Positions 8,065 to 28,998 of a stretch of 64,000 nt of DNA are shown one piece after another. A program made the position numbers and the translations under genes. Every line of letters starts with the position of its first letter. Positions within the stretch are counted from its first letter, which is position 1. The stretch covers positions 1 through 64,000 of the forward strand of contig JAAYCI010000085.1 of assembly GCA_012729855.1 (NCBI GenBank), written 5' to 3'. Under the pieces are notes generated by a model. The model saw only the letters and a program-made list of their open reading frames with translations, searched no databases and had not been told where the DNA came from. This DNA comes from Oscillospiraceae bacterium (GTDB lineage: Bacteria; Bacillota; Clostridia; Oscillospirales; Ruminococcaceae).

Positions 8065-9311
8065 TGTCCCTCCAGAATGAACCGCTCCAGCGCTTTCAGC
8101 AGTGGCGCACGGCGGTAGTGTGCCTGCCAGGCTGCGCGGCCGGCGGTACCCATGGCAGCGCGCTGGTCGGCGGGCATGTCCAGCAGGGCTTCTATGTTGG
8201 CGGCAAGGGCTTCGGCATCGCCTGCGCCGGAAACCAGCGCCGCGCCGCTCTCTTGCGCCACCCGGGCGCCCTCGCCTTCCATGGCCACCAGCAGGGGCCG
8301 GCCGGCGGCCAGGTAGCTGGTTATCTTGGCCGGTACCGTCAGCCCCAGGTTTTCGCTTTGGGTCAGCCCGGCAAACAGCGCGTCGGCCATGCCTGTCCAG
8401 CGGGGTATCTCCTCGGGCGGTACCTGCCCGCAGAATTCAAAGTGTGCGTCCAGCCCTTCGGCTTTTATGGCCTGGGCCAGCGCCTCGCGGCTCATGCCGT
8501 CGCCCAGCAGCAGCACCCGCAGCTTGGCGGCGGGCCGGCGGGCGGTTACCAGTTTCACTGCCCGCACCAGGTTTTCCAGGTTTTGCGCGGGGCTGATGTT
8601 GCCGGCAAACAGGAGGTTGAAAAAGCCGGCAAAGCGCGCTTTTAAGGCGTCATCAGGGATGTCCTGCCCGTAAAAGTCCTCACTGTACTGCGGGATAACG
8701 GCCACCTGCGGCGGGTGCTTGGCGGTGGCGGCAATGGCTTTCAGGCGCTCGGCCAGCGCGTCGCTCATGGCAATAAGGCGGGTGCAGCGGCGGTAGTGCC
8801 AGTCGCTTACCTTCTGGGCAATGCCGCGCAAAAAGGGGCTTTTCACCGGCAGCACCGAGTACAGGTTGTCCGGCCACAAGTCCAGCACATAGCAGGTAAG
8901 CGGCAGCTTGTGGATTTTGGCATGGAGGATGGCCGGGAACAGCATCATCACCGGGCTGGTCTCGTAGCAGAACACGGCGTCGTACCGACGGCCGGCCAGG
9001 CGTGGCAGGCTGAACAGCGCGAAGAAGGGCCAGGAGACATAGTTTAAAAAGATGCGCGCGCCGGTGTTGCCCTTGCGGCGTATTTCGCCCGCGCGGAATA
9101 CCTGGGCCCCGGCGTATTGCTGCCGGCGGGGGCCGGTGTAGCGGTAGCCGTCAAACCACTCGCCCTTTGGGTAGTTGGGCAGGCCGCACAGCACGTCCAC
9201 CTCAATGTCATCGCCCACAAAGCCGGCCACAATGTCGCTGATGCGAAAGTTCTCCGGCCAGAAGTGCTGGCTGACCACCAAAATGCGCCGGCGCTTCGCG
9301 TCATGTGCCAT
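8061..9311 (-). CDS. GT4 family glycosyltransferase (WbjE/CapL-like)
   Basis: This 416-aa GT-B fold enzyme has an N-terminal acceptor lobe beginning ILVVSQHFWPENFRI and a C-terminal donor lobe with NLLFAGNISPAQNLENLVRA and LTVPAKITSYLAAGRPLL. The opening resembles the L-fucosamine transferases encoded beside CapF/CapG-type genes, which are its upstream neighbours. Transfer of N-acetyl-L-fucosamine is therefore plausible but inferred from context. ATG 9311 has GGGGGA 8 bases upstream and overlaps the upstream gene by 11 bases; an earlier in-frame start is rejected for lack of a ribosome binding site. Confidence 0.85.
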   Translation of the reverse strand: MAHDAKRRRILVVSQHFWPENFRISDIVAGFVGDDIEVDVLCGLPNYPKGEWFDGYRYTGPRRQQYAGAQVFRAGEIRRKGNTGARIFLNYVSWPFFALFSLPRLAGRRYDAVFCYETSPVMMLFPAILHAKIHKLPLTCYVLDLWPDNLYSVLPVKSPFLRGIAQKVSDWHYRRCTRLIAMSDALAERLKAIAATAKHPPQVAVIPQYSEDFYGQDIPDDALKARFAGFFNLLFAGNISPAQNLENLVRAVKLVTARRPAAKLRVLLLGDGMSREALAQAIKAEGLDAHFEFCGQVPPEEIPRWTGMADALFAGLTQSENLGLTVPAKITSYLAAGRPLLVAMEGEGARVAQESGAALVSGAGDAEALAANIEALLDMPADQRAAMGTAGRAAWQAHYRRAPLLKALERFILEGQ

Positions 9312-10449
9312 CAGGCCGTTTCCCCCAGGTGGTGATGTCCACAATTTTGGCGTAGCTTTGTATGATGCGTATCACCTTGTTGCTCACGTTCAGGTCGCTG
9401 TAGTCGCGCGGCAAGCCCAGCGCCTCGCCATTGTTGTGCAGGGTCACGGCCAGCTCCATGGCTTGCTCCACGTCGGCGCCGTTTATGCCGCCAATCACAA
9501 TGCTGCCGGCGTCCAGCGCCTCGGGGCGCTCGGTGGAGGTGCGTATCAGCACGGCGGGAAAGTCCAGCAGGGCGCTCTCCTCGCTTAAGGTGCCGCTGTC
9601 GCTCAGCACACACCAGGCGTTCAGCTGCAGCTTGTTGTAGTCCAAAAAGCCAAAGGGCGGCAGGCTCCGCACCAGCGGGTGGAAGACAAAACCGCGCTTT
9701 TCAATAAACTTTTTGCTGCGCGGGTGGGTGGAGTAGATGATGGGCAGGCCCCGCGTTTCGGCAATGCGGTTTACGGCGTTCATCAGGCTGAGGAAGTTGA
9801 CTTCGTCGTCAATGTTCTCCTCTCGGTGGGCGCTGAGCAAAATATAGCCGCCGGGCGCAAGGCCCATGCGGTCCAGCACATCACTGGCATCTATGCCCTC
9901 GCGGTGGGCGTTTATCACCTCGGCCATGGGGCTGCCGGTCACAAAAAGGGTCTTGCCGTCCAGCCCCTCGCTCAGCAGGTAACGCCGGGCGTTCTCGGTG
10001 TAGGGCAGGTTGATGTCGCTGATGTGGTCAACGATCTTGCGGTTGATCATCTCGCTGACGTTCCAGTCCCAGCAGCGGTTGCCGGCCTCCATGTGGAAAA
10101 TGGGCACCTTGAGGCGCTTGGCCGAGATGGCGGCCAGCGCGCTGTTGGTGTCACCCAACACCAATAGGGCGTCGGGTTTGTGCTCGGCTATCACCTTGTA
10201 GCTTTTGGCAATGATGTTGCCCATCGTTTCGCCCAAATCGCCCCCGGCCACCTCCAGGAAGATATCGGGCGCGCGCAGGCGCAGGTCTTCAAAAAAGATA
10301 CCGTTCAGCTCATAGTCGTAGTTTTGGCCGGTGTGCACCAGCGTGTGGTCGAAGTATTGGTCGGCCCGGCGCAACACCTCGGCCAGGCGGATAATCTCCG
10401 GCCGGGTGCCCACCACGGTCATCAGTTTCAGCTTGGGCAATGCGTTCAC
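9301..10449 (-). CDS. Non-hydrolysing UDP-GlcNAc 2-epimerase (WecB/CapG/WbjD-like)
   Basis: This 382-aa protein has the family opening MTVVGTRPEIIRL, the conserved VHTGQNYD, FHMEAGNR, LLSAHREENID and LSDSGTLSEE segments, and is full length. The family inverts C2 of UDP-N-acetyl hexosamines in the cytoplasm. Next to a CapF-type reductase the likely reaction is the last step to UDP-N-acetyl-L-fucosamine (CapG/WbjD role) rather than UDP-ManNAc, but sequence alone does not decide. Its start overlaps the end of the CapF-like gene by four bases. Confidence 0.88.
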   Translation of the reverse strand: MNALPKLKLMTVVGTRPEIIRLAEVLRRADQYFDHTLVHTGQNYDYELNGIFFEDLRLRAPDIFLEVAGGDLGETMGNIIAKSYKVIAEHKPDALLVLGDTNSALAAISAKRLKVPIFHMEAGNRCWDWNVSEMINRKIVDHISDINLPYTENARRYLLSEGLDGKTLFVTGSPMAEVINAHREGIDASDVLDRMGLAPGGYILLSAHREENIDDEVNFLSLMNAVNRIAETRGLPIIYSTHPRSKKFIEKRGFVFHPLVRSLPPFGFLDYNKLQLNAWCVLSDSGTLSEESALLDFPAVLIRTSTERPEALDAGSIVIGGINGADVEQAMELAVTLHNNGEALGLPRDYSDLNVSNKVIRIIQSYAKIVDITTWGKRPDGT

Positions 10450-11615
10450 ACCTTTTCAAAATAAGTGTCGGGGCTGTCGGGGTCGAAGGGCTCGCTGGCC
10501 CACATCAGGGTAACCAGGTCGCCCTCGCCCACGTTTTCAATGTTGTGGGTGGATCCGGGCTGGATGTCGATTACCTCAAGCTTTTCGCCGCTCACCGGGT
10601 ACGCCACCACATCCTTGGTGCCAATACGGCGCAGCCGGATAACAGCCCGCCCGCTGACCACCAGAAACTTTTCGTTCTTGGTGTTGTGCCAGTGGTTGCC
10701 CTTTACAATGCCGGGCTTGGCCACGTTCACGCTCACTTGGCCCGACTCATGGCTGCGCAGAAATTCGGTAAAGCTGCCGCGGTCGTCCACGTTGCTGCGC
10801 AGGGGGTAGCTCAGCTTGTTCTCCGGTATAAAGCTCAGGTAGGTGGCCCACAGCTTGCGGGTAAGGTCGTCGCCCATGTCGGGCACGGTGAGGTTTTGCC
10901 GGGTGGCGGCGAAGCTGCGGATGGTGCCGGCCAGCCAGCCCAGGGATACCTCGTAGCTGGGGTCTATGCCGCAGGTGGTGCCGCTGGCGGCCGGCGCTTC
11001 GCCGGCGGGGGCGGTGCCCTCCAGCCGGGCCATAAAGCTGCGCACCACATCGTCTATGTAACACAGTGCGAAAGCGTAGGCGGGGTCGCGTATCTCAAGG
11101 GGCAGCCCGCGGGCCACGTTGTGGCAGAAGGTGGCCACCACGGTGTTGTAGTTGGGGCGGCTCCACTTGCCAAACACGCCGGGCAGGCGGTAGGCGTACA
11201 CCGGGCTGCCGTTCAGGCGGGCGTGGTCAAACAGGGCGGCCTCGGCCTCCTCCTTGCTTTTGGCATAGTCGGTGCCGTTGCCCGCGTGCGCGCTGGAGGA
11301 AAGCAGCACCGGCGCCTTGTTGCCGGCGGCGCGCAATGCGGCCAGCAGCCGCTGGGTAAGCCCGGCGTTGCCGGTGTAAAATTCCTCGGTGTTCTGGGGG
11401 CGGTTCACCCCCGCCAGATGAAAGACAAACGCCGCCTTGCCGGCGTAGTCCTCCAAGGCGCCCTCGGGGCTGTCCAGGTCCAGCAGCAAAAGGTTCTGCC
11501 AGCCCTCGGCCCGCAGGGTGGCTGCCAGGTTGCGGCCAATAAAACCCGCCGCGCCGGTTATCATCAGCGGGACGGTCTTGTCGGTAACGGGGTGGGAGGC
11601 GTCACGATTTTCCAT
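10446..11615 (-). CDS. CapF-like bifunctional NAD(P)-dependent reductase with C-terminal cupin
   Basis: This 389-aa protein has an N-terminal SDR domain with ITGAAGFIGRNL, LAGVNRP and a YAKSK catalytic motif. The C-terminal cupin domain carries GNHWHNTKNEKFLVV, a signature of CapF/WbjC proteins. In the CapE-CapF-CapG pathway CapF epimerises and reduces the CapE product toward UDP-L-FucNAc precursors. The next gene is a CapG-like epimerase, but no CapE-like dehydratase is in the window. ATG 11615 follows AGGAGAAG. It is the first gene of the leftward operon. Confidence 0.87.
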   Translation of the reverse strand: MENRDASHPVTDKTVPLMITGAAGFIGRNLAATLRAEGWQNLLLLDLDSPEGALEDYAGKAAFVFHLAGVNRPQNTEEFYTGNAGLTQRLLAALRAAGNKAPVLLSSSAHAGNGTDYAKSKEEAEAALFDHARLNGSPVYAYRLPGVFGKWSRPNYNTVVATFCHNVARGLPLEIRDPAYAFALCYIDDVVRSFMARLEGTAPAGEAPAASGTTCGIDPSYEVSLGWLAGTIRSFAATRQNLTVPDMGDDLTRKLWATYLSFIPENKLSYPLRSNVDDRGSFTEFLRSHESGQVSVNVAKPGIVKGNHWHNTKNEKFLVVSGRAVIRLRRIGTKDVVAYPVSGEKLEVIDIQPGSTHNIENVGEGDLVTLMWASEPFDPDSPDTYFEKV

Positions 11616-11708
11616 CGTCCTTCTTCTCCTCTTCACACAACGAGAGTTTGGTTCATACCCAGGCAGGCGGGCACCGCATGTTTTGCCCGTTTGCCATAAA
11701 ACTGTAAC

Positions 11709-11737
11709 ATTATAGCATGTTTCGGGGGATATTGCCA
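11709..11737 (-). promoter_or_regulatory. Promoter of the leftward polysaccharide operon
   Basis: On the minus strand TGGCAA and a perfect TATAAT are 17 bases apart, about 95 bases upstream of the CapF-like start. The -35 box is weak but the -10 is consensus. Confidence 0.6.
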
Positions 11738-11793
11738 GTGCGAGGGCAGGCGGCGCGCGCTTGGGCCGCCCGCCCAAAAAACGCCGCTGGCGA

Positions 11794-15930: not shown

Positions 15931-17139
15931 TTACCGGGCTTCGGGGCCAAACATCATGGCCAAATAGCGCTGCACCATGGCTTCCGTCTCCAGCCCGGCA
16001 AGCACCTCGGCGCCTAGCGCCCCAGCCTGCGCGCGGTAGCCTGCCAGGTTTTCGGCCATCTGCATAAAGGCGGCCACCAGGGCGCCCTGGTTGGCGGCAT
16101 CCTTCTGGCGGGCGTACTCGGGGGTGGTTTGAGGCCGCAGCTTCAGCACGTCGCCGTAGGCGGTGGGCGTTACAATACAGGCGGCCACGTCGCGCACGTC
16201 GCGGGCGTTGCCCACGTCGGTAAGCACCATGGGCACCTGGCAGTACATAGCCTCCAGCACGGCGTTGCTGCAGCCCTCCTGCAGGGTGGGCAGGGTGAAG
16301 ATATCCACATGCCGGCGCAAAAACTCGCCCATATGCCGGTGCGAAAAATAGGGCACGAAGATGATGCTGCTTTTGGCGGGCGACTTTTCTATAACCGCCA
16401 GCAGCGCTTCGTTGTAGTCCGGTTCAATCACATTGCCGGCCAGCAGCAGCTTGAAGCGCGGGTTCTGCTTTGTCAGCTGCTCCATCACGCCCACCATGCC
16501 TATCTGGTGCTTCACGGCGTTGATGCTGGACACCTGCGCAATAACGATATCGTCCTCGGCCAGGCCCAGCGCGGCGCGGGTGGCAAGGCCCGGCGGCGGC
16601 TCGGTGATATCCAGCTCGGCGAAGTCGACCCCGTTGGGGATGACTTCCACCCGGCTTTCCGGCATGCCGCTGCGGGTGCAGAAATAGTCTTTCACAAAGC
16701 TGCTTACCGCCGCAATGCCGTGGCAGGCCTCCAGGCATTCCCGGCGCTCGGCCATCTCGGCGTCGTTGAACCAGGTGTATACGTTGTGGATGGTGTAAGT
16801 GCAGCGGATGCCCAGGCTGGCCGCCCGCTCCATCATAAAGGTGTTGTAGTGGTAGTGCAGCTGCCGGATGTTCTTTTTCAGGCAGAAACCAAAGAAGTCG
16901 GCCTCATTGGCGCTAAATATGCGGAAATGCCGCAAGTCCTCCAGCTGCTCGGCAAACCAGCCGGCCAGCTCGGGTTTTTCGCACAATACGTAGGTGTCGT
17001 AGCCGTGGCGGCGGTAGCCCAGGTAGAGGTTGTACACCACCTGTTCCAGGCCGCCTTTGTCAAAGCCGGTAACCACCAGCCCAATGGCCGGTTTTTCGCC
17101 CTTTTGGCGCCCGTGGCGGAAAAGCCTGTCCCAGTTCAT
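15931..17139 (-). CDS. GT4 family glycosyltransferase
   Basis: This 402-aa GT-B fold enzyme shows an N-terminal [15 protein letters not shown] loop, the mid-protein VIPNGVDF and the C-terminal donor-site block [18 protein letters not shown] with the E-x7-E pattern. It should add a sugar from a nucleotide donor to a lipid-linked glycan in the cytoplasm. It is the third gene of an operon with two pyruvyltransferase-type proteins; its start overlaps the upstream gene by four bases, so it probably acts on the same polymer. Donor and acceptor are unknown. Confidence 0.88.
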
Positions 17140-19742
17140 GCTCCGGCCCTCCCGTCATGCTTTAGGTCCAGCGCGGCCAGCAGGGCCGCCCGGCCGCTCT
17201 TGAACAGCTCGTTTATTTTCAGCAGCACCTGGCGGTTGTCCTCGGCCATTTTTCGGCGGGTGGCTTCGTCTGGCAGGTTACCGGCCAAAAAATCCTCCAG
17301 CGCCACATACTGCATGCCAAAGCGCACAAAGTCGCCAATGCGAGTGCTTTGCAAAATGGGTACGATGCCAAACTCGATGTATTCCACCAGCTTGGTGGGG
17401 CAGCTCACGCGGTTCACGGCGGTGTCCTCCCGCAGGGCAAAGCCATAGTGGCACTGGTTGTATTCGGCCTTCAAATCGTCTACGCTGCGGGTGCCCACCA
17501 GCAGGTGTTCGGGCCTAGGGGCGCCGACGGGCCACATGGCCATAAAGTCGGCCGGCTTACTGGTGAAAATGCGGTAGGAGAAGGCGTCCGGCTGCTGGCT
17601 CATGGCGGCCTGCATCACGTCTATCTGCTGCCACTTTTGCAGCGCGCCGGCGTATACCACCACCGGGCGGCCGTCCTCAAGGCCGCGCTCGGCCAGCGGC
17701 TTGCCCAGCACGTCCAGCGCGGTTTCCAGTATGGGCATGGTGATGATGCCGGGCCTGAAGTCCGGGTACTTCTGCTTGTAGTGTTCGCCCATGGCCTCGG
17801 TAACCACAATGACGCGGTGGGCGGTGGCCGCCACAAATTCCTCCTGGTCGCCGGCGCGCTGGGCGTCGGGCAGGCTGCCGTGCATCACATGCTCCTCGGG
17901 CGAGATGCCGTGCATGTCCACAAACAGCGGGCCGGTGTGGTAGCCGTCGGTGGCAATGGCACTAATTTGTTCCACACTGTGGGAGTAGAAGGTATCGCCC
18001 GGCAGCATCATGGCTTTTATCATGTCCAGCTGCACGGGGTCGTCCCGGTCGTAGGTGATCTCCCACCTGCAGTCGGTGGCAAAGTCTATGGCAATGGGCA
18101 CCTTGATGTTTTTGTCGGCCAGGTACAGCTGCGAAAGGTAGATGCGCTGCACGTCGTCGCCCAAAAGGTCGTCTATGGCCTTGATGCGGCGGAAGTAGCC
18201 GTCGGTCAGCACACTGTCGCGGAACATGGGCGCCAGTATCCACATTACCTTGCGGCGCTTACGCACAATGCGCAGCAGGTCGGCGGTGCGCTTCCAGGTG
18301 TCGTCGTCCATGGGCACATAGCAGTAGCGGGTGGCCAGGTCGTACCCGGGTATGCCCATGCTGCCCTGGTGCGAAAGGTAGCGCTGCACCTGCAGCAGCG
18401 GGTCCAGCAGGCGGTAGCGGTGTATGGCCCCCTTGCGCCCGGCAAGCCGCGCGAACACCGCGGCGATGTACTTGGCCCAGCGCACGGGGTTCAGGCTTTT
18501 GAACTCCCGCAGGCCGGCCTGCATGGTGCGGAAGAACCGGTAGGACCTCGATTTGGCAATGGCGTCCAGATGGGCGGACGCCTGGCGTTCCACATCGCGG
18601 ATGCGCATGTTCTCCCGCCACAGGTAGTCGAACTGGATGATGATCTCCTCGCGGCGGTTTTCGGCCCGCATCAGGGCGGTGCCGGTGCGGGCCTCGCTGT
18701 CCAGGCGGTCGCGGTACACCGCGTAGTTCTCGGCCCGCAGGGCGTTGATGGTATCAAAAGAGGCCTCGGCGGCCTGCTGCATCAGGCCGGCGCGCCAGGC
18801 GGCAAGCTCGGCTTGGCGGGCGGGGTCGGGCGGGGGCACCAGGTGTTCTGCGTCCCGGCAGGCGGCCACAAAGGCCGTCACGGCTTTGTTCAGGGCATCG
18901 CGCAGGGGCTCAAAGGCGCGGGGGTTTTCGGGCGGGGTGATAACCGAATAGTCGCCCATGCCCAGGCCAAACAGGCGCATGTCTTCAGTGTGCGCCAGCC
19001 CGCCGCTGGGGTTGGCCGGCAGGGCGGTGGCATTGTTTTCTGTGGTGGGTTCCGCCAGCAGCAGCACCGGCACGCCCAGGGCAAGGCAGGGCAGGGCGCA
19101 GTGCAGGCGGCTGGTTACCACACAGTGGGCATTGCGGTACAGGGCCAGCTGCTCGGCCACTTTGGCCATGCGGTCGGGCACGGGCAGGGCGGCGTGCCTG
19201 GCGGGCAGCGTGTGGGTGGTTTCCACCACGGTAAAATCCCGCGCGGCCACCTGGTGGCCAATCTCGGCCACGGCCTCGGGGCTGATGTCTACCGCGCAGA
19301 TGTAAGCCGGGCCGCCATAGGCGCGGCTTTGGCGGGGCAGGGTGAGGGTGAGGCAGCCGGAGAGAAAGCTCTCGATGCCCCGGCTGCGCAGTGCGTGCAG
19401 CGAGGCTTCGTCGGCGCAGCCCACCGGGCCGTGGGCCGCCAGCCATTCGCCGCCGGGGCCGTCCAAAAAAGCGGTGCCCAGGCCCCAGTTGTCGGCTTTT
19501 TCAAAGTGCATGCCGGTACACAGCGGGTGCAGCCCTGCCGCCGGCGGCCAGTGGTATTTCTTGTGCAGGTACCAGCCGTTCATCACGGCGGCCACCATCT
19601 GCCCGTCGTCGGGGGCAAAAGTATCCAGCGCCTCGCGGTCCACAAACACATCGGCGCGGGGAAGAAACCGCAGTGCGGCGTAGGTTTGGATATCGTCGCC
19701 CAAATTGTCGGACGCTTTGTGGTAGATGGCAGCAAATTTCAT
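17136..19742 (-). CDS. Two-domain protein: polysaccharide pyruvyltransferase-like plus glycosyltransferase-like
   Basis: This 868-aa protein has a pyruvyltransferase-like domain at about residues 1-330, with NLGDDIQTYAAL near the start and the family motif VTSRLHCALPCLALGVPVLLL. A middle helical stretch (about 330-430) follows. The C-terminal half (about 450-868) looks like a GT-B glycosyltransferase, with VVVYAGALQKWQQIDVM and PTKLVEYIEFGIVP. Pyruvyltransferases of the CsaB/WcaK type add ketal pyruvate from PEP to surface glycans. A combined sugar transfer and pyruvylation role is inferred. The gene overlaps both neighbours by four bases. Confidence 0.7.
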   Translation of the reverse strand: MKFAAIYHKASDNLGDDIQTYAALRFLPRADVFVDREALDTFAPDDGQMVAAVMNGWYLHKKYHWPPAAGLHPLCTGMHFEKADNWGLGTAFLDGPGGEWLAAHGPVGCADEASLHALRSRGIESFLSGCLTLTLPRQSRAYGGPAYICAVDISPEAVAEIGHQVAARDFTVVETTHTLPARHAALPVPDRMAKVAEQLALYRNAHCVVTSRLHCALPCLALGVPVLLLAEPTTENNATALPANPSGGLAHTEDMRLFGLGMGDYSVITPPENPRAFEPLRDALNKAVTAFVAACRDAEHLVPPPDPARQAELAAWRAGLMQQAAEASFDTINALRAENYAVYRDRLDSEARTGTALMRAENRREEIIIQFDYLWRENMRIRDVERQASAHLDAIAKSRSYRFFRTMQAGLREFKSLNPVRWAKYIAAVFARLAGRKGAIHRYRLLDPLLQVQRYLSHQGSMGIPGYDLATRYCYVPMDDDTWKRTADLLRIVRKRRKVMWILAPMFRDSVLTDGYFRRIKAIDDLLGDDVQRIYLSQLYLADKNIKVPIAIDFATDCRWEITYDRDDPVQLDMIKAMMLPGDTFYSHSVEQISAIATDGYHTGPLFVDMHGISPEEHVMHGSLPDAQRAGDQEEFVAATAHRVIVVTEAMGEHYKQKYPDFRPGIITMPILETALDVLGKPLAERGLEDGRPVVVYAGALQKWQQIDVMQAAMSQQPDAFSYRIFTSKPADFMAMWPVGAPRPEHLLVGTRSVDDLKAEYNQCHYGFALREDTAVNRVSCPTKLVEYIEFGIVPILQSTRIGDFVRFGMQYVALEDFLAGNLPDEATRRKMAEDNRQVLLKINELFKSGRAALLAALDLKHDGRAGA

Positions 19743-21988
19743 GTTTGCCTGTAGCTCCTTGCCCTGATTTTAAGATACACGCGGGACAGCCCCAGCGCCA
19801 GCACGTCGCCCACGATGCAGAACAGCCGGTAAACGATGGCGGATGTTGTGAGGATGTTTTGGTCCAGCACGCCGCCCAGGAACATCAGCATGATGGCCTC
19901 GCGCACGCCCAGCCCGGCCGGCGCGCCGGGGGTTACAAAACCAATGGCCCAACTCATCACAAACAGGCCCACCACCTGGGGCAGCAGTTCCCAGGTCATC
20001 GTCTGGCCCATCAGCATCACAATGCACAGGTAAATTACCGCGTTCACCAGCAGGCGGCCGGCCACCTTCAGCACATACATCACGCAGGTCTTTACGCTCA
20101 ACCGTTTCATGATGCCCACATACTTGCGCACCAGCTTGCGGATTTTTTTGCGGAAAAGCACCAGCGCCAGCACCACCACGGCCAGCACCACGGCAATAAT
20201 AATGATCCAGGTGCGGCTAAGGTGTATCTGCCCGATGTAGCTGACCAGATAGTTAAACACGCAGATGGCCGCGATAGCGGCCCCGGCAATCATCATGAAC
20301 AGCGCCTCCAGCATGGTGGACAACGCCACTTCGCTATGGGAGACGTCCTCCTCCACGGCAATTTGATTGCGGGCCACATAGTGCATGATGTTCCCCGGCA
20401 CATACCGGTAGATAAAGGTGTTGCAATAGATGCGCACCACCGTCAGGTGGTTCACCACCTTGGCGGCCATCACATTTAGCAGTTGATTGTAGTAGACAGA
20501 CGCCAAAATGTTGTTGGCGGCGTGCAGCGGCAGCAGCGCCACCATGCCCAGTATCACCCCGGCCGAGGCCAGCACCGAGAAGTCAATGTCGAACTTGATG
20601 ACGGTGTAGATGATATAGGCGATGGCCACCACCATAAGCACCCGGCCCAGGAAATTGGCCACCCGTTTGCCAACGCTGGGGCCCTCCACCGGTTCCTCGC
20701 CCTCCGCCAGCTGCGGGGTGGGCTCAAAGTCGGCGTCTTTCCAGGCCAGGCCGTCAGCCACGTCGCCAATCAGCACGATGTTTTGCCGGCTGCTCTTTAA
20801 CACCTCGGGCAAATGGCTTTGGATGCTTTCGCGTATCTCATCCTCGTGTGCCAGCACCTCGTCAAAGCGCTCCAGCAGCATGTCGCAGCTCAGGTGGGAG
20901 AAATCCACCGCCCAGTCGCCCAGGCCGAACATGTCCAGCACTTCTTTATACTTGTGGCTCCAGCCCACCAGCAGGGTGGGCACACCCTTTTCCAGCGCGC
21001 CTATCATGGCGTGGAAGCGGGCGGCCACCAGCACCCGGCTGCGGCCAATCAGCTCACGAATCTTCTCGGGGCCCATCTCCTCGTGATACCAGCGCACCTT
21101 GCAGGGGTTTTTGGCGGCCGCATATACGTCGTCGCACACCAGCAGGTCGTTGTTGCGGTTCTTTTCGCTGCCCAGCCGCGCGGCATTGGCAATGAGCAGC
21201 ACGCCGAAGCCCCGGTCGGTCAGCGCATCCACAAACTGCGTCATCACGGCCCGGTAGTCTATCTTTAGGTCCTCGCACTTGCTGGCCACCACGCTGCTAA
21301 GGGAAAGCGCTATCACATCGTTTTGGTAGAAATCATCACAGGCCCACAGCGCGGCCACCTCGGCGGCCACGTCGGGGCTGTCCGGCATACTGAACGCGCC
21401 GTCGGCGCACAGCACCACGTTCTCGGTGATGCCAATGCCGGCCAGGCTGTCCTTGGTGATTTGCCCGCGCGCGCAGATCAGCTTCATTTTGGGCAGGATG
21501 ATTTTGGCCAGCAGCTTGTTGAGCGGGGAGTGGAATTCCCCCAGTGCCTGCGAATACTTGACCACCGGCACCCCCAGCAGCAGGGGCACGGCGCATGTGA
21601 TGAAAGCGTACAGGTTCATCACAAAGCCGCGGCTGTCCACAAAAGAGATGCCCGCCTCGTCTATGGCGAGGTCGGTCGTCAGGTAGGTTTTAAGGATGGT
21701 GTTGCGGCACAACAGTTTTTTCATGGGGGGAAGCCAGCGGAACAGCCAGTACAGCAGCGCCAGCGGAAAGGCAAAGAACACCAGTGCCTCCGGCGTGCAG
21801 GGCACCACCCGGATGAAATCGAAGGGCAGCAGCCGGCGGTCGCCCGCAGGATAGGTGGACATCAGGTTGATCTTCAGTTTATCGCCGTAGCGCGCGTGCA
21901 GCTGCTTGATGGAGCTTTGCAGCATTGCAGCCGCGCCCTTGTTGCCATGCCAGCTGGCCGCGATGATAGCCACTTTCAAATCATTCAT
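19739..21988 (-). CDS. Fusion of polysaccharide pyruvyltransferase-like domain and LPG-synthase/flippase-type membrane domain
   Basis: This 749-aa protein has a cytoplasmic N-terminal part (about 1-400) of the polysaccharide pyruvyltransferase type, with NKGAAAMLQ near the start and VLVAARFHAMIGALEKGVPTLL. After a linker, residues about 445-749 form a multi-pass domain that contains TPGAPAGLGVREAIM, a hallmark of the LPG_synthase_TM (AglD/MprF flippase-type) family. This suggests modification of a lipid-linked glycan coupled to its handling or flipping at the membrane. ATG 21988 follows AAGGAG; the longer frame is rejected. It is the first gene of the operon and overlaps the next by four bases. 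I do not know of this fusion as a described enzyme. Confidence 0.7.
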   Translation of the reverse strand: MNDLKVAIIAASWHGNKGAAAMLQSSIKQLHARYGDKLKINLMSTYPAGDRRLLPFDFIRVVPCTPEALVFFAFPLALLYWLFRWLPPMKKLLCRNTILKTYLTTDLAIDEAGISFVDSRGFVMNLYAFITCAVPLLLGVPVVKYSQALGEFHSPLNKLLAKIILPKMKLICARGQITKDSLAGIGITENVVLCADGAFSMPDSPDVAAEVAALWACDDFYQNDVIALSLSSVVASKCEDLKIDYRAVMTQFVDALTDRGFGVLLIANAARLGSEKNRNNDLLVCDDVYAAAKNPCKVRWYHEEMGPEKIRELIGRSRVLVAARFHAMIGALEKGVPTLLVGWSHKYKEVLDMFGLGDWAVDFSHLSCDMLLERFDEVLAHEDEIRESIQSHLPEVLKSSRQNIVLIGDVADGLAWKDADFEPTPQLAEGEEPVEGPSVGKRVANFLGRVLMVVAIAYIIYTVIKFDIDFSVLASAGVILGMVALLPLHAANNILASVYYNQLLNVMAAKVVNHLTVVRIYCNTFIYRYVPGNIMHYVARNQIAVEEDVSHSEVALSTMLEALFMMIAGAAIAAICVFNYLVSYIGQIHLSRTWIIIIAVVLAVVVLALVLFRKKIRKLVRKYVGIMKRLSVKTCVMYVLKVAGRLLVNAVIYLCIVMLMGQTMTWELLPQVVGLFVMSWAIGFVTPGAPAGLGVREAIMLMFLGGVLDQNILTTSAIVYRLFCIVGDVLALGLSRVYLKIRARSYRQT

Positions 21989-22064
21989 GATGGATGTATC
22001 TCCTTGCCGGATTCCAGCGCTGTGGATGGCCAATATCGCTACGGCACAAAATTCACTCCCAACC

Positions 22065-22093
22065 ATCTTAGTCAATATCCATAATGATGTCAA
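22065..22093 (-). promoter_or_regulatory. Promoter of the pyruvyltransferase/flippase operon
   Basis: A perfect TTGACA and TAAGAT are 17 bases apart on the minus strand, about 75 bases upstream of the start. Confidence 0.65.
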
Positions 22094-22138
22094 GAAAGCA
22101 CAGCAGGCCATAATGCCTTCCCAATCAGTAAATATGGC

Positions 22139-22167
22139 TGTTCCCGGGCGCAGCTTTGTGCTATAAT
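22139..22167 (+). promoter_or_regulatory. Possible promoter of the rightward GT2 operon
   Basis: A perfect TATAAT at 22162 lies 44 bases before the GT2 start. The matching -35 position (TGTTCC) is poor. Confidence 0.45.
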
Positions 22168-22210
22168 ACTATCGTTATGTCCAAATGCAATCAGGTGTGG
22201 GAGGGTATGC

Positions 22211-23134
22211 ATGTCGCAAAAGATATCGTTTGTTGTCCCCTGTTATAACGAAGCGGAATCGTTGCAGATGCTCTACGATGGCATTGTGGCCAACACCCCC
22301 GGAGATCTTGAAATACTTTTTATAAACGATGGCTCTACCGACGATACAGCCAATGTGATTCGCAGGCTGCACGAGGCGGACGGCCGGGTACATTTGGTTT
22401 CCTTCCGCAAAAACCTTGGCAAGTCGGCGGCGTTGCAGGCGGGTTTTCGCAACTGCACCGGAGACATTGTAATCACCATGGATGCAGACTTGCAGGACGA
22501 CCCCACCGAGATCGTCCACTTCATTGCCGCCCTCGAAGAGGGCTACGATGTTGTCTCCGGCTGGAAATTCAAACGCAACGACCCGCTGGAAAAACGCCTG
22601 CCGTCCAAACTGTTCAACCGGGTGGTTGCCAGGCTGTCCGGGGTCAAACTGCACGACTTCAATTGCGGCTTCAAGGCCTATCGCCGCGAGGCCGTAGAGG
22701 CCATAGACCTGTATGGTGAACTCCACCGCTATATTCCCGTGTTGGCCTACAGGAAAGGCTTTCGCATCACCGAAATTAAAGTACACCATAACGAGCGTAA
22801 GTTCGGCAAGTCAAAATATGGGTTCGAGCGCTACCTGCGTGGTTTTTTCGACGCGTTGACCGTGGCCTTCATCAGCAAGTTTTATGACCGCCCCATGCAC
22901 CTGTTTGGAAGATTGGGCCTGCTTGTCACACTGATTGGCCTGGTTTTGTGTATCATACTAACCGTGCAGTGGTTCATGGGCATGCCCATTGGCACACGCC
23001 CCTTGCTTATGCTGGGGGTCCTGTGCATCATTGTGGGCATCCAGTTTTTTATCACCGGCTTTTTGGGCGACATGATTGTGGAAAGCACCTTCCGTTCACG
23101 CTATGATGAAAGCCACATCAAGGAGAAATTCTGA
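22211..23134 (+). CDS. GT2 polyprenyl-phosphate sugar transferase (GtrB/DPM-like) with two membrane segments
   Basis: This 307-aa protein begins SFVVPCYNEAESL, has FINDGSTDDT and TMDADLQDDP (metal-binding DxD type), the FNCGFKAY segment, and two C-terminal membrane helices at about 232-256 and 266-290. This is the layout of GtrB/ArnC-type enzymes that make polyprenyl-phosphate sugars for membrane glycosyltransferases. The next gene encodes such a membrane enzyme and starts directly after this stop codon, so donor and user are probably coexpressed. ATG 22211 follows GGGAGGG. Codon use is less GC-rich than in neighbouring genes. Confidence 0.9.
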   Translation: MSQKISFVVPCYNEAESLQMLYDGIVANTPGDLEILFINDGSTDDTANVIRRLHEADGRVHLVSFRKNLGKSAALQAGFRNCTGDIVITMDADLQDDPTEIVHFIAALEEGYDVVSGWKFKRNDPLEKRLPSKLFNRVVARLSGVKLHDFNCGFKAYRREAVEAIDLYGELHRYIPVLAYRKGFRITEIKVHHNERKFGKSKYGFERYLRGFFDALTVAFISKFYDRPMHLFGRLGLLVTLIGLVLCIILTVQWFMGMPIGTRPLLMLGVLCIIVGIQFFITGFLGDMIVESTFRSRYDESHIKEKF

Positions 23135-24793
23135 ATGCAGATAAAGCGGTGGTTCAGCCGGGTGCGGGCCCTTGCACAAAAATACAGGGTTGCCCTTATC
23201 TGCCTGTGCTTTTTGGTCATCCTGGTCACAGGGCTCATCCCCACAGCAGATTATGGCGTCTCCACAGATGAGCCCACACAGAGAAAGCACAGTCTGATCA
23301 CCTACCGGTATGTCTACACCACCCTCACAGGCAAACCGCTGGACATCGATATGCCCGACCTGGAAGATTACCGCGCCAAGCATTACGGCACAGCCATACA
23401 GATGCCCCTGGTTTTCGCAGAGCATCTCACCAGCTTCACCATGCCCAAAAGCACCATTTACCTCATGCGCCACTATTACACCTTCATGGTGTACTTTGCT
23501 TCACTGGTGTGTTTTTTCTTCATGTGCAAAATCCTGCTGAAGTCAGACGTTTTTGCCATGGCCGCCACCTTGATGCTCTACCTTTACCCGCGCTTTTTTG
23601 CCCATGCCCATTATAACATCAAGGATCTGATGTTCACCGCGCTGTTCACCATTACGCTATTTGCCATGGTGTTGTTTCTGAAATACAAGCGGAAATGGTG
23701 GCTGGGCCTTATTTTTGCTTTTTTCACCGCGCTTTCCACCAATAGCCGGGTTATTGGCGTTATGGTGCTGTGTGGCTGCCTGTGCCTGATGCTGCTGGAA
23801 GATATTGCCGCCTGGCTTAGTGCGCGCCGGCAAAAAAACATAGGCGCGCTGGACTATAGCCTCACGCTGCGCCGGCGGCTGCTGTCTTACGTGGTGGCAA
23901 TCGTGGGTTTTGTGGCATTTTATATTTTCATCACCCCAGCAACATGGTCAGACCCCATCCGTGTTTTCATCGACACCTTATCCCGCTTTTCAAGCTACGA
24001 TTCCTGGGCCGGCACCATGCAGTTTATGGGCGAGATGATACGCAAGCCCCAAATGCCCTGGTATTTCCTGCCGGTGTGGTGGCTGTTCACCGTTCCATTC
24101 ATCTACCTGGCGCTGATGGTGGTGGGCATTGTTTTTCTGGTGGTGCGCTCGTTTAGGCCAAGCCCCGAGGGCATTCTTACCAACCGGTATATCTGGCTGC
24201 TTTTTGGCTTTTGGTTTCTGCCCACAGCCATGGTTATCATAAAGCCTTCTACCATTTACACCGAATGGCGGCATGTTTATTTCCTGTTTCCGCTCATGGT
24301 CTTCCTGGCGGTTTACGGGCTGCAGCGGCTTACAGCCGCGCTCGCCGGCAGCCGTTTCGCGCGTTTGCGCTTTGTAGCGCCGGTTTTGCTGGGGGCCAGC
24401 CTTTTATGGCAGGCCGTTTGGATGGTGTGCACCCACCCACACCAAAATGTTTACTTCAACACGCTGGGCCGCCATTATGCCAGCGGCATGACGCGCGACA
24501 GCTGGAAGCTCTGTTACAAACAAATGGTCGAATATATTCTGTCAAACGATCCAGATGATGTCAACATTTTCCTGCCGGACTCCATTAATGAAATACAAAT
24601 GGTGTTTTTTAAAGACCAAGCCCATCGCCTGCGCTTTTTGGAAGGGGAAAAGAACCTGGAAAAAGCGGATTACATTATCTATTCTTTCCGAAACACCGTT
24701 GGAAACAACTATGAGGTAGGCGGTTTTGAAGAAATATATGCCATTTGGGTAGACGGCTTTAAAATTGGCACCATTTTGCAGCGGGTGACATAA
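23135..24793 (+). CDS. Multi-pass membrane glycosyltransferase (GT39/GT83, PMT-like)
   Basis: This 552-aa protein has about ten membrane segments and the GT-C layout: after the first helix comes an acidic loop GVSTDEPTQRKH with the catalytic-type Asp-Glu. A C-terminal extracytoplasmic stretch follows the last helix. Enzymes of this family take sugar from a polyprenyl-phosphate donor outside the membrane and place it on proteins or glycans. The adjacent GtrB-like enzyme would supply the donor. ATG begins one base after the GT2 stop. A convergent terminator follows. The acceptor is unknown. Confidence 0.8.
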   Translation: MQIKRWFSRVRALAQKYRVALICLCFLVILVTGLIPTADYGVSTDEPTQRKHSLITYRYVYTTLTGKPLDIDMPDLEDYRAKHYGTAIQMPLVFAEHLTSFTMPKSTIYLMRHYYTFMVYFASLVCFFFMCKILLKSDVFAMAATLMLYLYPRFFAHAHYNIKDLMFTALFTITLFAMVLFLKYKRKWWLGLIFAFFTALSTNSRVIGVMVLCGCLCLMLLEDIAAWLSARRQKNIGALDYSLTLRRRLLSYVVAIVGFVAFYIFITPATWSDPIRVFIDTLSRFSSYDSWAGTMQFMGEMIRKPQMPWYFLPVWWLFTVPFIYLALMVVGIVFLVVRSFRPSPEGILTNRYIWLLFGFWFLPTAMVIIKPSTIYTEWRHVYFLFPLMVFLAVYGLQRLTAALAGSRFARLRFVAPVLLGASLLWQAVWMVCTHPHQNVYFNTLGRHYASGMTRDSWKLCYKQMVEYILSNDPDDVNIFLPDSINEIQMVFFKDQAHRLRFLEGEKNLEKADYIIYSFRNTVGNNYEVGGFEEIYAIWVDGFKIGTILQRVT

Positions 24794-24796
24794 AAT

Positions 24797-24825
24797 AAAG
24801 GGTGCCATTGGCACCCTTTATTTTT
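24797..24825. terminator. Bidirectional terminator between convergent glycan genes
   Basis: AAAGGGTGCC and GGCACCCTTT form a perfect stem with a three-base loop. A T run follows on the plus strand and the reverse side ends in TTTATTTT. Confidence 0.88.
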
Positions 24826-25786
24826 GCCTGTCGTTGTCGTGCTGGTGTGTCGAATAGTCCATCTTTCTTGTGCGGTACTGAATTTCCTCCAGAATCTTGC
24901 GGTTGGCCGCCACCAAATCGGCCTGCAGCCCGCCAATAAAGCACTGAATGCCCGCCAGCATCATGAAGATGGCCAGCACCAGTGACTGGATATGCCCGTC
25001 GCCCTGGCCCAGGAAAAAGTACACCAGAAAGCGGATGACCACCAGCAGGCCAATGCCCAGCAGGATGCCGCCGATGATGCCAAAAAAGCGCAGTGGCTTG
25101 TACATCATGAAGGAGCGCAGAATCACCGTGGCCGAACGCTTCATGTAGGCCCACATGCTTTTGAACAGCCGGCTCTTGCGGGTTTCCGGGTTGGTGCCTA
25201 CGGGCACCGAGGCCACCGCCATTTTGTTGTGCCCGGCCTGGATGATGGTCTCCAGCGTGTAGGTGTACTCGTTGATGACATTCACCCGCAGCGCGGCCTC
25301 CCGCGAATAGGCGCGGAAGCCGCTGGGGGCGTCGGGCACGTCGGTGCTGCTGGCCACCCGCACCACCCGGCTGCCAAACCGCTGAAAGGTTTTTTTGGAC
25401 TTGGAAAAGTGCGCCGTATCGCTAATGGGCCGCTCGCCAATGACGATGTCGGCCTTTTCGTCCAGAATGGGCCGCACCAGTTTTTCAATGTCGGCGCCGC
25501 AGTACTGGTTGTCGGCGTCGGTGTTCACAATGATGTCGGCCCCCAGCCGCAGGCAGGCGTCCAGCCCGGCCATGAAGCCACGGGCCAGGCCCTTGTTGCG
25601 GTTGAAGCTGACGATGTGGTGCACGCCCAGCTCCCGCGCCACCCGCACGGTGTCGTCCCCGCTGCCGTCGTTTATAATGAGATACTCAATCTCATCGATG
25701 CCATCAATCCGGCGTGGCAGGTCGGCAAGTGTTTGAGGCAGGGTGTCCTGCTCATTGTAGCAGGGAATCTGGATGATCAGTTTCAC
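24818..25786 (-). CDS. GT2 family glycosyltransferase with two C-terminal membrane segments
   Basis: This 322-aa protein opens LIIQIPCYNEQDTL, with IINDGSGDDT and VNTDADNQY as nucleotide and metal motifs and PSGFRAYSREAAL as acceptor-side motif. Two membrane helices at about 234-259 and 268-290 anchor it. The layout fits polyprenyl-phosphate sugar synthesis or direct glycan extension. The start is GTG at 25786, with AGGAGG upstream. It lies 16 bases after the UDP-glucose dehydrogenase gene, so it may use UDP-glucuronate or a derived sugar; that is inference from context. Confidence 0.87.
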   Translation of the reverse strand: MKLIIQIPCYNEQDTLPQTLADLPRRIDGIDEIEYLIINDGSGDDTVRVARELGVHHIVSFNRNKGLARGFMAGLDACLRLGADIIVNTDADNQYCGADIEKLVRPILDEKADIVIGERPISDTAHFSKSKKTFQRFGSRVVRVASSTDVPDAPSGFRAYSREAALRVNVINEYTYTLETIIQAGHNKMAVASVPVGTNPETRKSRLFKSMWAYMKRSATVILRSFMMYKPLRFFGIIGGILLGIGLLVVIRFLVYFFLGQGDGHIQSLVLAIFMMLAGIQCFIGGLQADLVAANRKILEEIQYRTRKMDYSTHQHDNDRQK

Positions 25787-25802: not shown

Positions 25803-27104
25803 CTACTCTGTCACGGCCGGCCGGCCGATAGAATCGTAGGTAATGCCGGTGCCCACAAAGCGCCCCGGGTCGTAGCAATTGCGGCCGTCCAACACCAGCG
25901 GCGTAGCCATCAGCTGTTTGTATTTCAAGATATCAAAGTGCTTCACATCGTCCCACTCGGTCATGATCAGGCAAAGGTCTGCCCCGGTGATGGCCTCTTC
26001 TATTGTGGCACAATAACTGATCTGGTAGGGATACACCTTGCGGAAATTATCTTGGGCCACCGGGTCCCAGGCGCGCACCACCGCGCCGGAGCTCAGCAGC
26101 GTGGCCACGTTGCCCAGCGACGGCGCACTGCGTAGGTCGTCGGTATCCGGCTTGAAGGCCAGGCCCAGCAGTGCCACGGTTTTGTCCTCCAGGTCATCGA
26201 TATACCGGCGTGATTTATACAGCAGCCGCGCTTTCTGCCGCTCGTTTACCTCAATGGCGGCCTTCACCGTCTTGATGTCCTTGTCGAACTGGTTGGCGGT
26301 GAAGTGCAGGGCCAGCGTGTCTTTGGGAAAGCAGGAGCCGCCATAGCCGATGCCGGCCCGCAAAAACTTATCGCCGATGCGGGGATCCATGCCCATGCCG
26401 CAGGCCACGTCGTCCACATTGGCGCCCACCTGTTCGCACAGGTTGGCAATCTCATTGATATAAGAGATTTTCAGGGCCAAAAAGTCGTTAGAGGCGTATT
26501 TGATCATCTCGGCGCTGTTGCGGTCGGTGGTCAGGATGGGCTGGTTGAAGGGGCCGTAAATCTCCCGTAGCACCGCCTCACTGTGCGCATCCTGCACACC
26601 AATAACGATGCGGGCGGCGGTCATGGTGTCCCGCACGGCGCTGCCCTGGGAGAGGAACTCCGGGTTGGAGACCACCGCCACCGATACAGGCGCTTTTAAA
26701 TAGCGCTTCAAAAGGTTTTCCACCCGGTCGTTGGTGCCCACCGGCACGGTGGACTTCACCACCACCACGCAGTCCTGTTGCACACACTCGGCAATTTGCT
26801 TGACGGCGGTGAACACATACTTTAAGTTGGCCGAGCCGTCCGGCTGGTCGGGCGTGCCAACGGCCACAAAAATCGCCGCGGCGTCCCGGTAGGCGGCGCG
26901 GTGGTCGGTGGTATAGTTCAGGCGTTCAGCGTGCGCGGCCATCATCTCCTCCAGCCCCGGCTCATACAGCGGGCATATGCCATCCCGCAAGAGGGCAATG
27001 CGGTCCTCGTCCACGTCCAGGCAGGTCACCTCGTGCCCCACACTGGCCAGGCACACGGCGGTCACCAGCCCCACATAACCCACGCCTACCATCGTCAATT
27101 TCAT
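25803..27104 (-). CDS. UDP-glucose 6-dehydrogenase
   Basis: This 433-aa protein has the NAD-binding MVGVGYVGLVTAVCLA opening, STVPVGT and NPEFLSQGSAV motifs, and the catalytic cysteine in GYGGSCFPKDT. The C-terminal domain contains GLAFKPDTDDLR. It oxidises UDP-glucose twice to UDP-glucuronate in the cytoplasm, supplying acidic sugar for surface polymers. A UDP-ManNAc or UDP-GlcNAc dehydrogenase is possible, but the motifs favour the glucose enzyme. ATG 27104 is chosen because a longer frame lacks a ribosome binding site. It lies between two glycosyltransferase genes on the same strand. Confidence 0.92.
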   Translation of the reverse strand: MKLTMVGVGYVGLVTAVCLASVGHEVTCLDVDEDRIALLRDGICPLYEPGLEEMMAAHAERLNYTTDHRAAYRDAAAIFVAVGTPDQPDGSANLKYVFTAVKQIAECVQQDCVVVVKSTVPVGTNDRVENLLKRYLKAPVSVAVVSNPEFLSQGSAVRDTMTAARIVIGVQDAHSEAVLREIYGPFNQPILTTDRNSAEMIKYASNDFLALKISYINEIANLCEQVGANVDDVACGMGMDPRIGDKFLRAGIGYGGSCFPKDTLALHFTANQFDKDIKTVKAAIEVNERQKARLLYKSRRYIDDLEDKTVALLGLAFKPDTDDLRSAPSLGNVATLLSSGAVVRAWDPVAQDNFRKVYPYQISYCATIEEAITGADLCLIMTEWDDVKHFDILKYKQLMATPLVLDGRNCYDPGRFVGTGITYDSIGRPAVTE

Positions 27105-27198: not shown

Positions 27199-28998
27199 TC
27201 AAGTAGCGGCGGGCACGCCCGCGCCGGCGGTTTCCGGCACTTCCGTTTCCCCGCGCGCCTCACTAAGCCAAGCGGCGCCCGCCTCCGACAACCGGCCCTC
27301 GTCCAGCGGCAGTGTGTACAGGAACAACCGTCCCTTGTCGCCCTCATACAGCGGGGTGTTAATCAGCAGATAATCGGCCTCGTCCAGCACGGCATACCCG
27401 GTTTCCAGCGGGTCTGCCACCAAAATTTTACCACCGTCTATTTTCCAGAAATCCACGATGCTCTGGATGCGGACAACAGAGCTGCCGGTGCCGTTCACCA
27501 TGGTCACGTCCCGGTCGCGGTTGTCTATCTGCTCAAAGAAGGTTTGGGAGAAGCCAATGCCGCTGTTGGGCACAATGCGTTCGTTGAACACCGGGAATAC
27601 CGTTACCAGGCCGTATACCAGCAGCAGGCTGGTAATGGCCATGGCGGCCTTTTTGCCGGCGAGCAGGATGGCCATGGCAATGCCCACGGTTATGGCCACG
27701 GCAAAATAAATCATCTCGGGGTTTTGCAGCGTGAAGTGTGCGATATCCGCTGTCACGATACTGTCGGTGACAAAAGGTATTTTCCGCGCCGGGCTGCCAA
27801 TGCTGCCATAAAGCGAGAAGAAAGAGAATAGCAGCAGGAATACGCTGATAATCAGACTGGCAAGCACGTTCCGGGGTTTGGGTGTCTTGCCTATATTGCG
27901 GAACATCACAATAAACCCGTTGATAAGCAGAATGATGACGAGATAGGTGATGTACCGCCCCAGCATATACAGCGAGGTATTCTGGTTGTAGTAGGCTTTG
28001 TCGCTGTGGCGCACCACAATAAAGCCAATGGCGCCGCTAATAAGAAAGGATAAAACCAGCAGACCATTGTACTTGGCCTTTATGGCGTCGGCAATGTATT
28101 CTTTGATGTTCAGCACCAGCGGCAACACAAAAGGGGCCATGCCCAGCAGCATATAGCCAATATACCACACCGCCCACTGGGCAAAGGGCGCCCCGCCGCC
28201 GGTACTGGCCTCGGGCGTGCGCGTTACAAAAAAAAGCATCTCATCTTTAAACGATTGCAGCACGCCCGGGTACAGGAAAACAAAGGCCAAAATTGCCGCT
28301 ATGGCCACCACGCCATAAATGGCCAGCAGCACCAGCCGCTCCACCACATGGAACATCGCCTTTGTGCGCTGCCGCTCGAACCAAAACAGCTTTAAAATAA
28401 GGTAAATGCCAATGGCGGCCATGGCCCCAATAGCCTGGTAGCGGGTAAGGAACATGATGGCTGCCAGCAGCCCATACCAAGCAAACAGCAGGTACACCTG
28501 CCACTTTTTGCCAGCTAAGGGCTTGGAGACAAAATACACGCTGAGAATGATGAGCGGCAACAGCAGGTTTTCGCTGGAAATGTACTGGGGGTAGATCCAG
28601 TGGGAGGGCAGCAACAAGCTGAGCACACACAGCAGATAGCACTTGTTGCGGTCAAGCCAGCGCCGCGCAATCCAGAATATCGGGAAAATCACCGTGGAGG
28701 AGGCCGCCACGTTGATCAGTTTCATCACGGTAAAAAAGTTGGAAAACAGGAACGACGGCATCAACATGGCGGAATAGACCGGCGGGTAGTGCATGTTCAG
28801 CCCGCCCAAGCCTTTGAACATCAGGTGGGCGTTCACCTTGTACACCATCTCATCGCCCAGGAAGGTGGGCTCCTGCGAGCCGCGCAACACAAAATACTTC
28901 AGCACCACCGATGCAAGATAGATGATTACCAAAATAACGGCGCTGGTCAGCACCGGTTTGGTCCAATAGTTTTTAGCGCGTTGTCCCAATTTGCTCAT
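27199..28998 (-). CDS. Multi-pass membrane protein, probable GT-C glycosyltransferase
   Basis: This 599-aa protein has about 11-12 membrane segments. After the first helix an acidic loop reads EPTFLGDEMVY, placed like the catalytic aspartate loop of GT-C (PMT/ArnT-like) enzymes, then GGLNMHYPPVYS. A soluble extracytoplasmic tail of about 130 residues follows the last helix. It probably uses a lipid-linked sugar outside the membrane, perhaps that made by the GT2 protein encoded downstream. ATG 28998 follows AGGAGG. It is the first gene of a leftward three-gene unit with UDP-glucose dehydrogenase. Family assignment is by topology, not by a strong motif. Confidence 0.65.
   Translation of the reverse strand: MSKLGQRAKNYWTKPVLTSAVILVIIYLASVVLKYFVLRGSQEPTFLGDEMVYKVNAHLMFKGLGGLNMHYPPVYSAMLMPSFLFSNFFTVMKLINVAASSTVIFPIFWIARRWLDRNKCYLLCVLSLLLPSHWIYPQYISSENLLLPLIILSVYFVSKPLAGKKWQVYLLFAWYGLLAAIMFLTRYQAIGAMAAIGIYLILKLFWFERQRTKAMFHVVERLVLLAIYGVVAIAAILAFVFLYPGVLQSFKDEMLFFVTRTPEASTGGGAPFAQWAVWYIGYMLLGMAPFVLPLVLNIKEYIADAIKAKYNGLLVLSFLISGAIGFIVVRHSDKAYYNQNTSLYMLGRYITYLVIILLINGFIVMFRNIGKTPKPRNVLASLIISVFLLLFSFFSLYGSIGSPARKIPFVTDSIVTADIAHFTLQNPEMIYFAVAITVGIAMAILLAGKKAAMAITSLLLVYGLVTVFPVFNERIVPNSGIGFSQTFFEQIDNRDRDVTMVNGTGSSVVRIQSIVDFWKIDGGKILVADPLETGYAVLDEADYLLINTPLYEGDKGRLFLYTLPLDEGRLSEAGAAWLSEARGETEVPETAGAGVPAAT

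Follow-up and report, generated by a model that had tools for sequence, protein, structure and literature searches.

A pyruvyltransferase domain joined to an MprF/AglD-type membrane domain in one gene of an uncultured Oscillospiraceae bacterium

Enzymes and flippase-type domains on one polypeptide

Membrane domains of the MprF/AglD (UPF0104) type act as lipid flippases or scramblases, a function that has been demonstrated for MprF and that AglD is predicted to have (PMC8131360, PMC11980842, PMC5898192). Both proteins carry an enzyme on the same chain. MprF, the lysyl/alanyl-PG synthase and flippase, has about 13 helices and places its membrane domain before a DUF2156 aminoacyltransferase; in the Rhizobium tropici protein (RtMprF), a gate formed by E280 and R304 parts the cavities beside a loop containing P273, A274 and G275 (PMC8131360). 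AglD of Haloferax volcanii, a member of a dolichol-phosphate sugar pathway, has a cytoplasmic N-terminal GT2 enzyme followed by a C-terminal UPF0104 domain predicted to be a flippase (PMC5898192). In bacteria, the UPF0104 flippase-type proteins HexF (Clostridioides difficile hexSDF) and GpgF (Pseudomonas aeruginosa gpgSDF) are encoded with glycolipid head-group enzymes; they are unfused, their modifying enzyme is a deacetylase, their carrier is a glycerolipid, and their flippase role is likewise unproven.

Pyruvyltransferases with a PF04230 domain, including CsaB (Paenibacillus alvei), WcfO (Bacteroides fragilis) and Pvg1p (Schizosaccharomyces pombe), are free-standing enzymes that lack such a membrane domain. 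CsaB and WcfO pyruvylate undecaprenyl-PP-linked precursors at a cytoplasmic stage, before translocation (PMC10435577, PMC6801904). The PEP site comprises R148, R306, H308 and K328 in CsaB and R217, R337, H339 and K361 in Pvg1p, and changes at R148 and some at H308 of CsaB abolish activity (PMC10435577). Many pathways pose the question of how pyruvylated glycan precursors get across the membrane.

Here, we describe a single gene that encodes both a pyruvyltransferase domain and an MprF/AglD-type membrane domain, and thereby names a candidate flippase for such precursors. It lies in a 64,000-nucleotide stretch of contig JAAYCI010000085.1 (the window). This kind of fusion is already known, since MprF and AglD pair an enzyme with a UPF0104-type domain on one chain. 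A pyruvyltransferase as the enzyme partner appears to be a new pairing, seen once: our literature searches returned no pyruvyltransferase-flippase fusion and nothing relevant on pyruvyltransferases with FrhB, the domain that accompanies them in the relatives described below. Like AglD, the window protein has its enzyme first and its UPF0104-type domain last, although the enzyme is a PF04230 pyruvyltransferase and the GT2 is encoded by a separate nearby gene. With MprF it shares profile similarity and a gate pair of the same spacing, whereas the domain order is reversed, about eight helices are present and Pfam finds no DUF2156 domain in it.

One gene with two domains

The fused gene occupies 19739..21988 on the minus strand, exactly where the sequence-only reading had placed it, with an ATG at 21988, a stop codon ending at 19739 and 749 codons free of internal stops. 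A ribosome-binding site, AAGGAG, precedes the start (22000..22005, minus strand). The two halves share a common frame and an identical GC3 (0.82 and 0.82), and the stop and the ATG of the following gene (17136-19742) overlap by 4 bp, so that this is one gene, not two; the single clean frame rules out both a gene pair and a frameshift. The fusion comes from one draft metagenome-assembled genome of an uncultured bacterium (94% complete) and is absent from genomes of the same genus, which are 63-78% complete. Even so, an assembly artefact or a functionless one-off accident is highly improbable, as it would take a chimera of two complete domains, in frame and with matching GC3, at the very point where genes of the same families adjoin in relatives, and the start, the ribosome-binding site and the downstream overlap are all regular.

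The N-terminal domain (residues 1-415; 20744..21988, minus strand) matches PF04230 (PS_pyruv_trans) over residues 16-345 with an E-value of 9.9e-23 and 81.9 bits, well over the Pfam cut-off of 25.3, and shares 53-61% identity with the N-terminal domains of five pyruvyltransferase-FrhB proteins. A motif singled out earlier, AARFHAMIGALEKGVP (residues 322-337), coincides with the PEP site of CsaB and Pvg1. All PEP-contact residues of these enzymes, R, R-x-H and K, are present: R174 (21467..21469), corresponding to CsaB R148 and Pvg1 R217; the R324-F325-H326 motif (21011..21019), corresponding to CsaB R306/H308 and Pvg1 R337/H339; and K346 (20951..20953), corresponding to CsaB K328 and Pvg1 K361, all on the minus strand, with the correspondence set by motif and spacing instead of by direct alignment to CsaB. 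R174, R324, H326 and K346 are invariant in a 10-row family alignment. With PF04230 matched above its cut-off and the PEP-site residues kept, the original assignment of the first 400 or so residues to the pyruvyltransferases holds, and from these residues and the homology we infer that the domain is a PEP-dependent ketal-pyruvyltransferase.

A different activity of the GT-B-like superfamily, such as a sugar transferase or another PEP-dependent transfer, seems unlikely to us, given that the four PEP-contact residues are all in place and that the H-to-K spacing is 20 residues in the window protein as in CsaB. Arguing for it are the NCBIfam equivalog models, whose cut-offs the domain misses by far (CsaB, 57.7 against 213.1; WcaK, 33.3 against 727.1 and 50.6 against 399), the FrhB domain to which the relatives' domain is fused or adjacent and for which no part in pyruvylation is known, and several membrane-domain loci at which a GT4 takes the neighbouring slot instead. 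Structure prediction gave poor models (pLDDT 46 for the full length and 56 for the N-terminal domain) because only two or three sequences went in, and the Foldseek matches of the low-confidence model to GT-B folds, with TM-scores near 0.3, were given no weight.

An acidic linker of 23 residues (416-438; 20675..20743, minus strand) follows, in the place held by the FrhB domain in relatives such as L005 and L102, and shows no homology to FrhB or to the membrane domain. The remainder of the protein (residues 439-749; 19742..20674, minus strand) is a multi-pass membrane domain, hereafter TM, which is assigned to the MprF/AglD (UPF0104) type from its clade, its matches to MprF structures and its hydropathy. 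It had been proposed to carry an LPG_synthase_TM signature, and this stands through its relatives and not through its own Pfam score. In the full protein, LPG_synthase_TM (PF03706) covers residues 464-724 with an E-value of 2.2e-4 and 21.2 bits against a cut-off of 33.4, and the isolated C-terminal part reaches 26.3 bits (E 6e-6), still sub-threshold; the assignment therefore rests on homologues. Two standalone clade members tested in full exceed the cut-off (L005, 55.2 bits; L049, 38.1 bits), 11 of the 20 members of the TM clade match PF03706, and a 20-row TM profile matches solved MprF structures (E 8e-8). In a tree, the 20 TM relatives, standalone or fused, make up a single clade that is distinct from typical PF03706 proteins (support 99/99, with long branches). 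The window domain thus appears to be a divergent, distant homologue of the MprF/AglD flippase domain that falls outside curated PF03706 membership. A phmmer search of the window protein against the PDB returned chance matches to YscU only, and no relative turned up when viral sequences were scanned with the TM profile.

The C-terminal motif noted earlier, TPGAPAGLGVREAIM (residues 686-700), coincides with the gate region of MprF, and the gate residues tie this signature to a functional site. E697 (19898..19900, minus strand) is the counterpart of RtMprF E280 and R721 (19826..19828, minus strand) that of R304; both are invariant across 20 TM rows, their spacing of 24 equals that of the RtMprF pair, and a PGAPAGLG loop precedes them in the window protein. 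The wider form of this loop, PGxPxGxGVRE, is retained in all or nearly all of the 20 relatives, and the subfamily has a second hallmark motif, YxPGNxMxxxxRN. Of all the observations, the invariant gate pair and the loop point most strongly to a lipid flippase or scramblase role for the domain. Next to the first helix and the last, positive residues lie on one and the same side, an arrangement that would fit a cytoplasmic enzyme.

The membrane half might instead be a mere anchor that holds the pyruvyltransferase at its lipid-linked substrate, with GtrA, Wzx or another flippase performing the export. The divergence of the domain and its score below the Pfam cut-off are compatible with this, as are two GtrA genes elsewhere in the genome and the dispensability of HexF and GpgF for product formation. 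An anchor has no need of the E697-R721 pair and the PGxPxGxGVRE loop, however, and the standalone TM proteins are joined to no enzyme that could be anchored, which leaves this explanation improbable. A role for TM as a replacement of GtrA was also considered and is unsupported, GtrA being present as well in all eight genomes checked.

Unfused relatives and a possible origin of the fusion

A census of the fusion with its operon neighbours, as envisaged in the sequence-only reading, yielded no second fusion; it did recover the same parts as separate neighbouring genes in relatives. The searches covered 100 genomes of relatives, 391 of the class, 248 of the family, 145 around the closest unfused genome and 368 of the phylum, in samples that overlap and with a permissive initial screen by which distant cases can be missed. 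Plasmids likewise contained no fusion, and a widespread architecture is ruled out within the searched genomes. Long PF03706 frames of the class were inspected in part, and those of 837-880 aa are probably MprF, judged by length only. Two candidates, L045 with a low-complexity N-terminus and L046 with a kinase-like C-terminus, proved not to be pyruvyltransferase fusions. The latter (L046 3538-5466, from another Clostridia-class genome) combines a short UPF0104-type domain with a kinase/phosphotransferase-like domain, named by eye, and would thus be a further pairing of an enzyme with a flippase-type domain.

In five genomes, the proteins most similar to the N-terminal domain (53-61% identity) each carry an FrhB/FdhB domain on the same chain (PF04422, PF04432), and a sixth such fusion, in G872, is 57% identical to the window domain. 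In four of the first five (L005, L102, L103 and L104), a separate TM gene directly follows the pyruvyltransferase-FrhB gene. In G1018 (L117 6728-11052), the pyruvyltransferase (45% identity), FrhB, TM and GT2 are four consecutive separate genes, and in G691 pyruvyltransferase-FrhB, TM and GT2 lie side by side. The loci L117, L005, L102, L103 and L104 share with the window the pyruvyltransferase subfamily (45-61% identity), the class of membrane protein and the GT2, but unlike the window protein they have FrhB and a separate TM. The conserved pyruvyltransferase-FrhB-TM-GT2 order supports a common pathway.

The pyruvyltransferase-FrhB fusions are located at L005 8001-10346, L102 8226-10559, L103 2788-5130, L104 2936-5152, L105 7939-10227 and L116 7854-10187, and the two genes are separate but adjacent in L117, L009 and L085. 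FrhB/FdhB is of the flavin/Fe-S oxidoreductase beta-subunit type.

The window protein contains no FrhB, and no FrhB_FdhB_C domain was found anywhere in its genome (94% complete). Because FrhB is missing from both the protein and the genome, the gene has the appearance of a deletion-fusion within a pre-existing operon: from adjacent pyruvyltransferase, FrhB and TM genes, FrhB would have been lost together with the stop that separated it from TM, joining the pyruvyltransferase to TM. Loss of FrhB along with this stop would be the simplest account of the origin. The tree agrees with this account without proving it: the TM domains of the window protein and of G691 fall together in a supported five-member group.

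Glycosyltransferase neighbourhood and a possible pathway

Downstream of the fused gene, the 17136..19742 gene (minus strand) encodes a second N-terminal PS_pyruv_trans domain (Pfam E 1.1e-11) with an incomplete PEP site and a weakly GT4-like C half (E 0.028). This second domain has the R and H of the site, apparently without the K, and its C-terminal half has 430 residues. A GT4 glycosyltransferase assigned by Pfam (15931..17139, minus strand) overlaps it by 4 bp, and the successive 4-bp overlaps make the three genes a tight operon. On the other side, an intergenic region (21989..22210) separates the fused gene from a divergent GT2 that resembles ArnC/PgfS-like polyprenyl-phosphate sugar transferases (22211..23134, plus strand; NCBIfam E 6.5e-56, below the equivalog cut-off). 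Beyond it lie a large multi-pass protein lacking a Pfam match (23135..24793, plus strand), which may be GT-C-like by position and composition; an AglJ/DPM1-like GT2 with C-terminal membrane helices (24818..25786, minus strand; AglJ model E 1.7e-29, below cut-off); a UDP-glucose dehydrogenase (25803..27104, minus strand; NCBIfam TIGR03026, over cut-off); and a GT-C (PMT_2-like) membrane glycosyltransferase (27199..28998, minus strand; PF13231 E 1.8e-5, just below cut-off).

The AglJ/DPM1-like GT2 is a recurrent companion of TM. Loci were gathered without regard to their neighbours, through matches to the window protein or the TM profile, and in 16 of the 20 with usable flanks an orthologue of this GT2 lies within 6 kb of TM, often directly adjacent; outside the window these orthologues are 56-72% identical to it. 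With three random GT2 copies per 2.6-Mb genome, chance would give about 1.5% per locus and about 1e-26 for at least 16 of 20, a figure that would in truth be less extreme, since the window is counted among the 16 and the genomes are related. The GT2 is missing near TM in L081, L107, L108 and L110. Judged by position, several TM loci also include GT-C-type proteins, large and multi-pass, most of which lack a Pfam match. The TM-GT2-GT-C loci are the bacterial counterpart of an archaeal neighbourhood of UPF0104, AglD-like GT and PMT/STT3-like genes (PMC5898192), and the linkage suggests that in a wide range of Bacillota the AglJ/DPM1-like GT2 has an MprF/AglD-type protein as its partner. In L085, GT2, GT4, pyruvyltransferase and FrhB are followed by a flippase of the Wzx/MurJ superfamily where other loci have TM, a swap that favours a flippase role for TM.

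The GT2 linkage suggests that the carrier is a polyprenyl phosphate. A glycerolipid carrier, on which an acidic membrane glycolipid would be made and flipped in the manner of HexSDF/GpgSDF, is the doubtful alternative: the closest studied bacterial UPF0104 proteins, HexF and GpgF, use diacylglycerol- or PG-based glycolipids, and MprF scrambles many lipids. Set against this, the acceptors required by the known bacterial pyruvyltransferases CsaB and WcfO are of undecaprenyl type, and the AglJ/DPM1-like GT2 and GT-C genes linked to TM recall the archaeal AglD-type dolichol-phosphate module (PMC5898192).

On a polyprenyl carrier, the observed gene, its two homologies, the active-site and gate residues that it has kept, the order of the unfused genes and the GT2 linkage are consistent with the following sequence of steps. 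The GT2 and GT4 enzymes encoded alongside would charge a polyprenyl-phosphate(-diphosphate) carrier with sugar; the cytoplasmic N-terminal domain, using PEP, would pyruvylate the carrier-linked sugar at the inner leaflet; the C-terminal domain would give the modified lipid passage to the outer leaflet; and the GT-C membrane transferases of the locus would use the exported lipid outside. That the parts are separate but neighbouring in relatives suggests that a lipid-linked sugar is modified and exported in coupled steps of one pathway. It had been suggested from the outset that one protein could modify a lipid-linked glycan inside and hand it across the membrane. The domain assignments, the gene order and the fit with known biology agree with this; pyruvylation and flipping by the window protein are both predicted from homology, and the fusion alone suggests a hand-over from domain to domain.

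We regard it as an evenly balanced judgement that one polypeptide, derived from a pyruvyltransferase-FrhB-TM operon, couples pyruvylation to the flipping that follows it in a lipid-linked glycan pathway. Weighing against it are the TM score under the Pfam cut-off, the four TM loci with no GT2 orthologue nearby, among them L107 and L108 with the nearest TM relatives of the window domain, the low-confidence structure models and the restriction of the fusion to a single metagenome-assembled genome. HexF and GpgF, close functional analogues, are dispensable for making their lipids, and their flippase role has been questioned. A natural fusion of this kind, whose parts are unfused neighbours in relatives, allows the coupling to be tested on a single protein. 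More speculatively, and rather less probably, the pyruvyltransferase-FrhB-TM-GT2 order could represent an undescribed pathway in which a pyruvyl-derived, possibly redox-processed lipid-linked sugar has its own MprF-type flippase, the window protein being a streamlined version that couples modification directly to flipping and thereby exports only a pyruvylated carrier.

Other genes of the window were noted as well. A UDP-L-FucNAc-like synthesis and transfer set (8061-11777, minus strand) comprises a WbcJ/FnlB-like reductase, a WecB-like 2-epimerase and a WcaI/WbuB-like glycosyltransferase. A flagellin gene (54240-55880, minus strand) shares the contig with the glycan locus, and flagellin is a possible glycan acceptor. 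The gene at 29342-33385 (minus strand) fuses the carbamoyl-phosphate synthase large subunit (CarB, residues 1-1051) to the diaminopimelate epimerase DapF (residues 1072-1345); full-length matches to this CarB-DapF fusion occur in at least 12 of 41 relatives, from several families, so that it recurs across the order, and other relatives have CarB alone.
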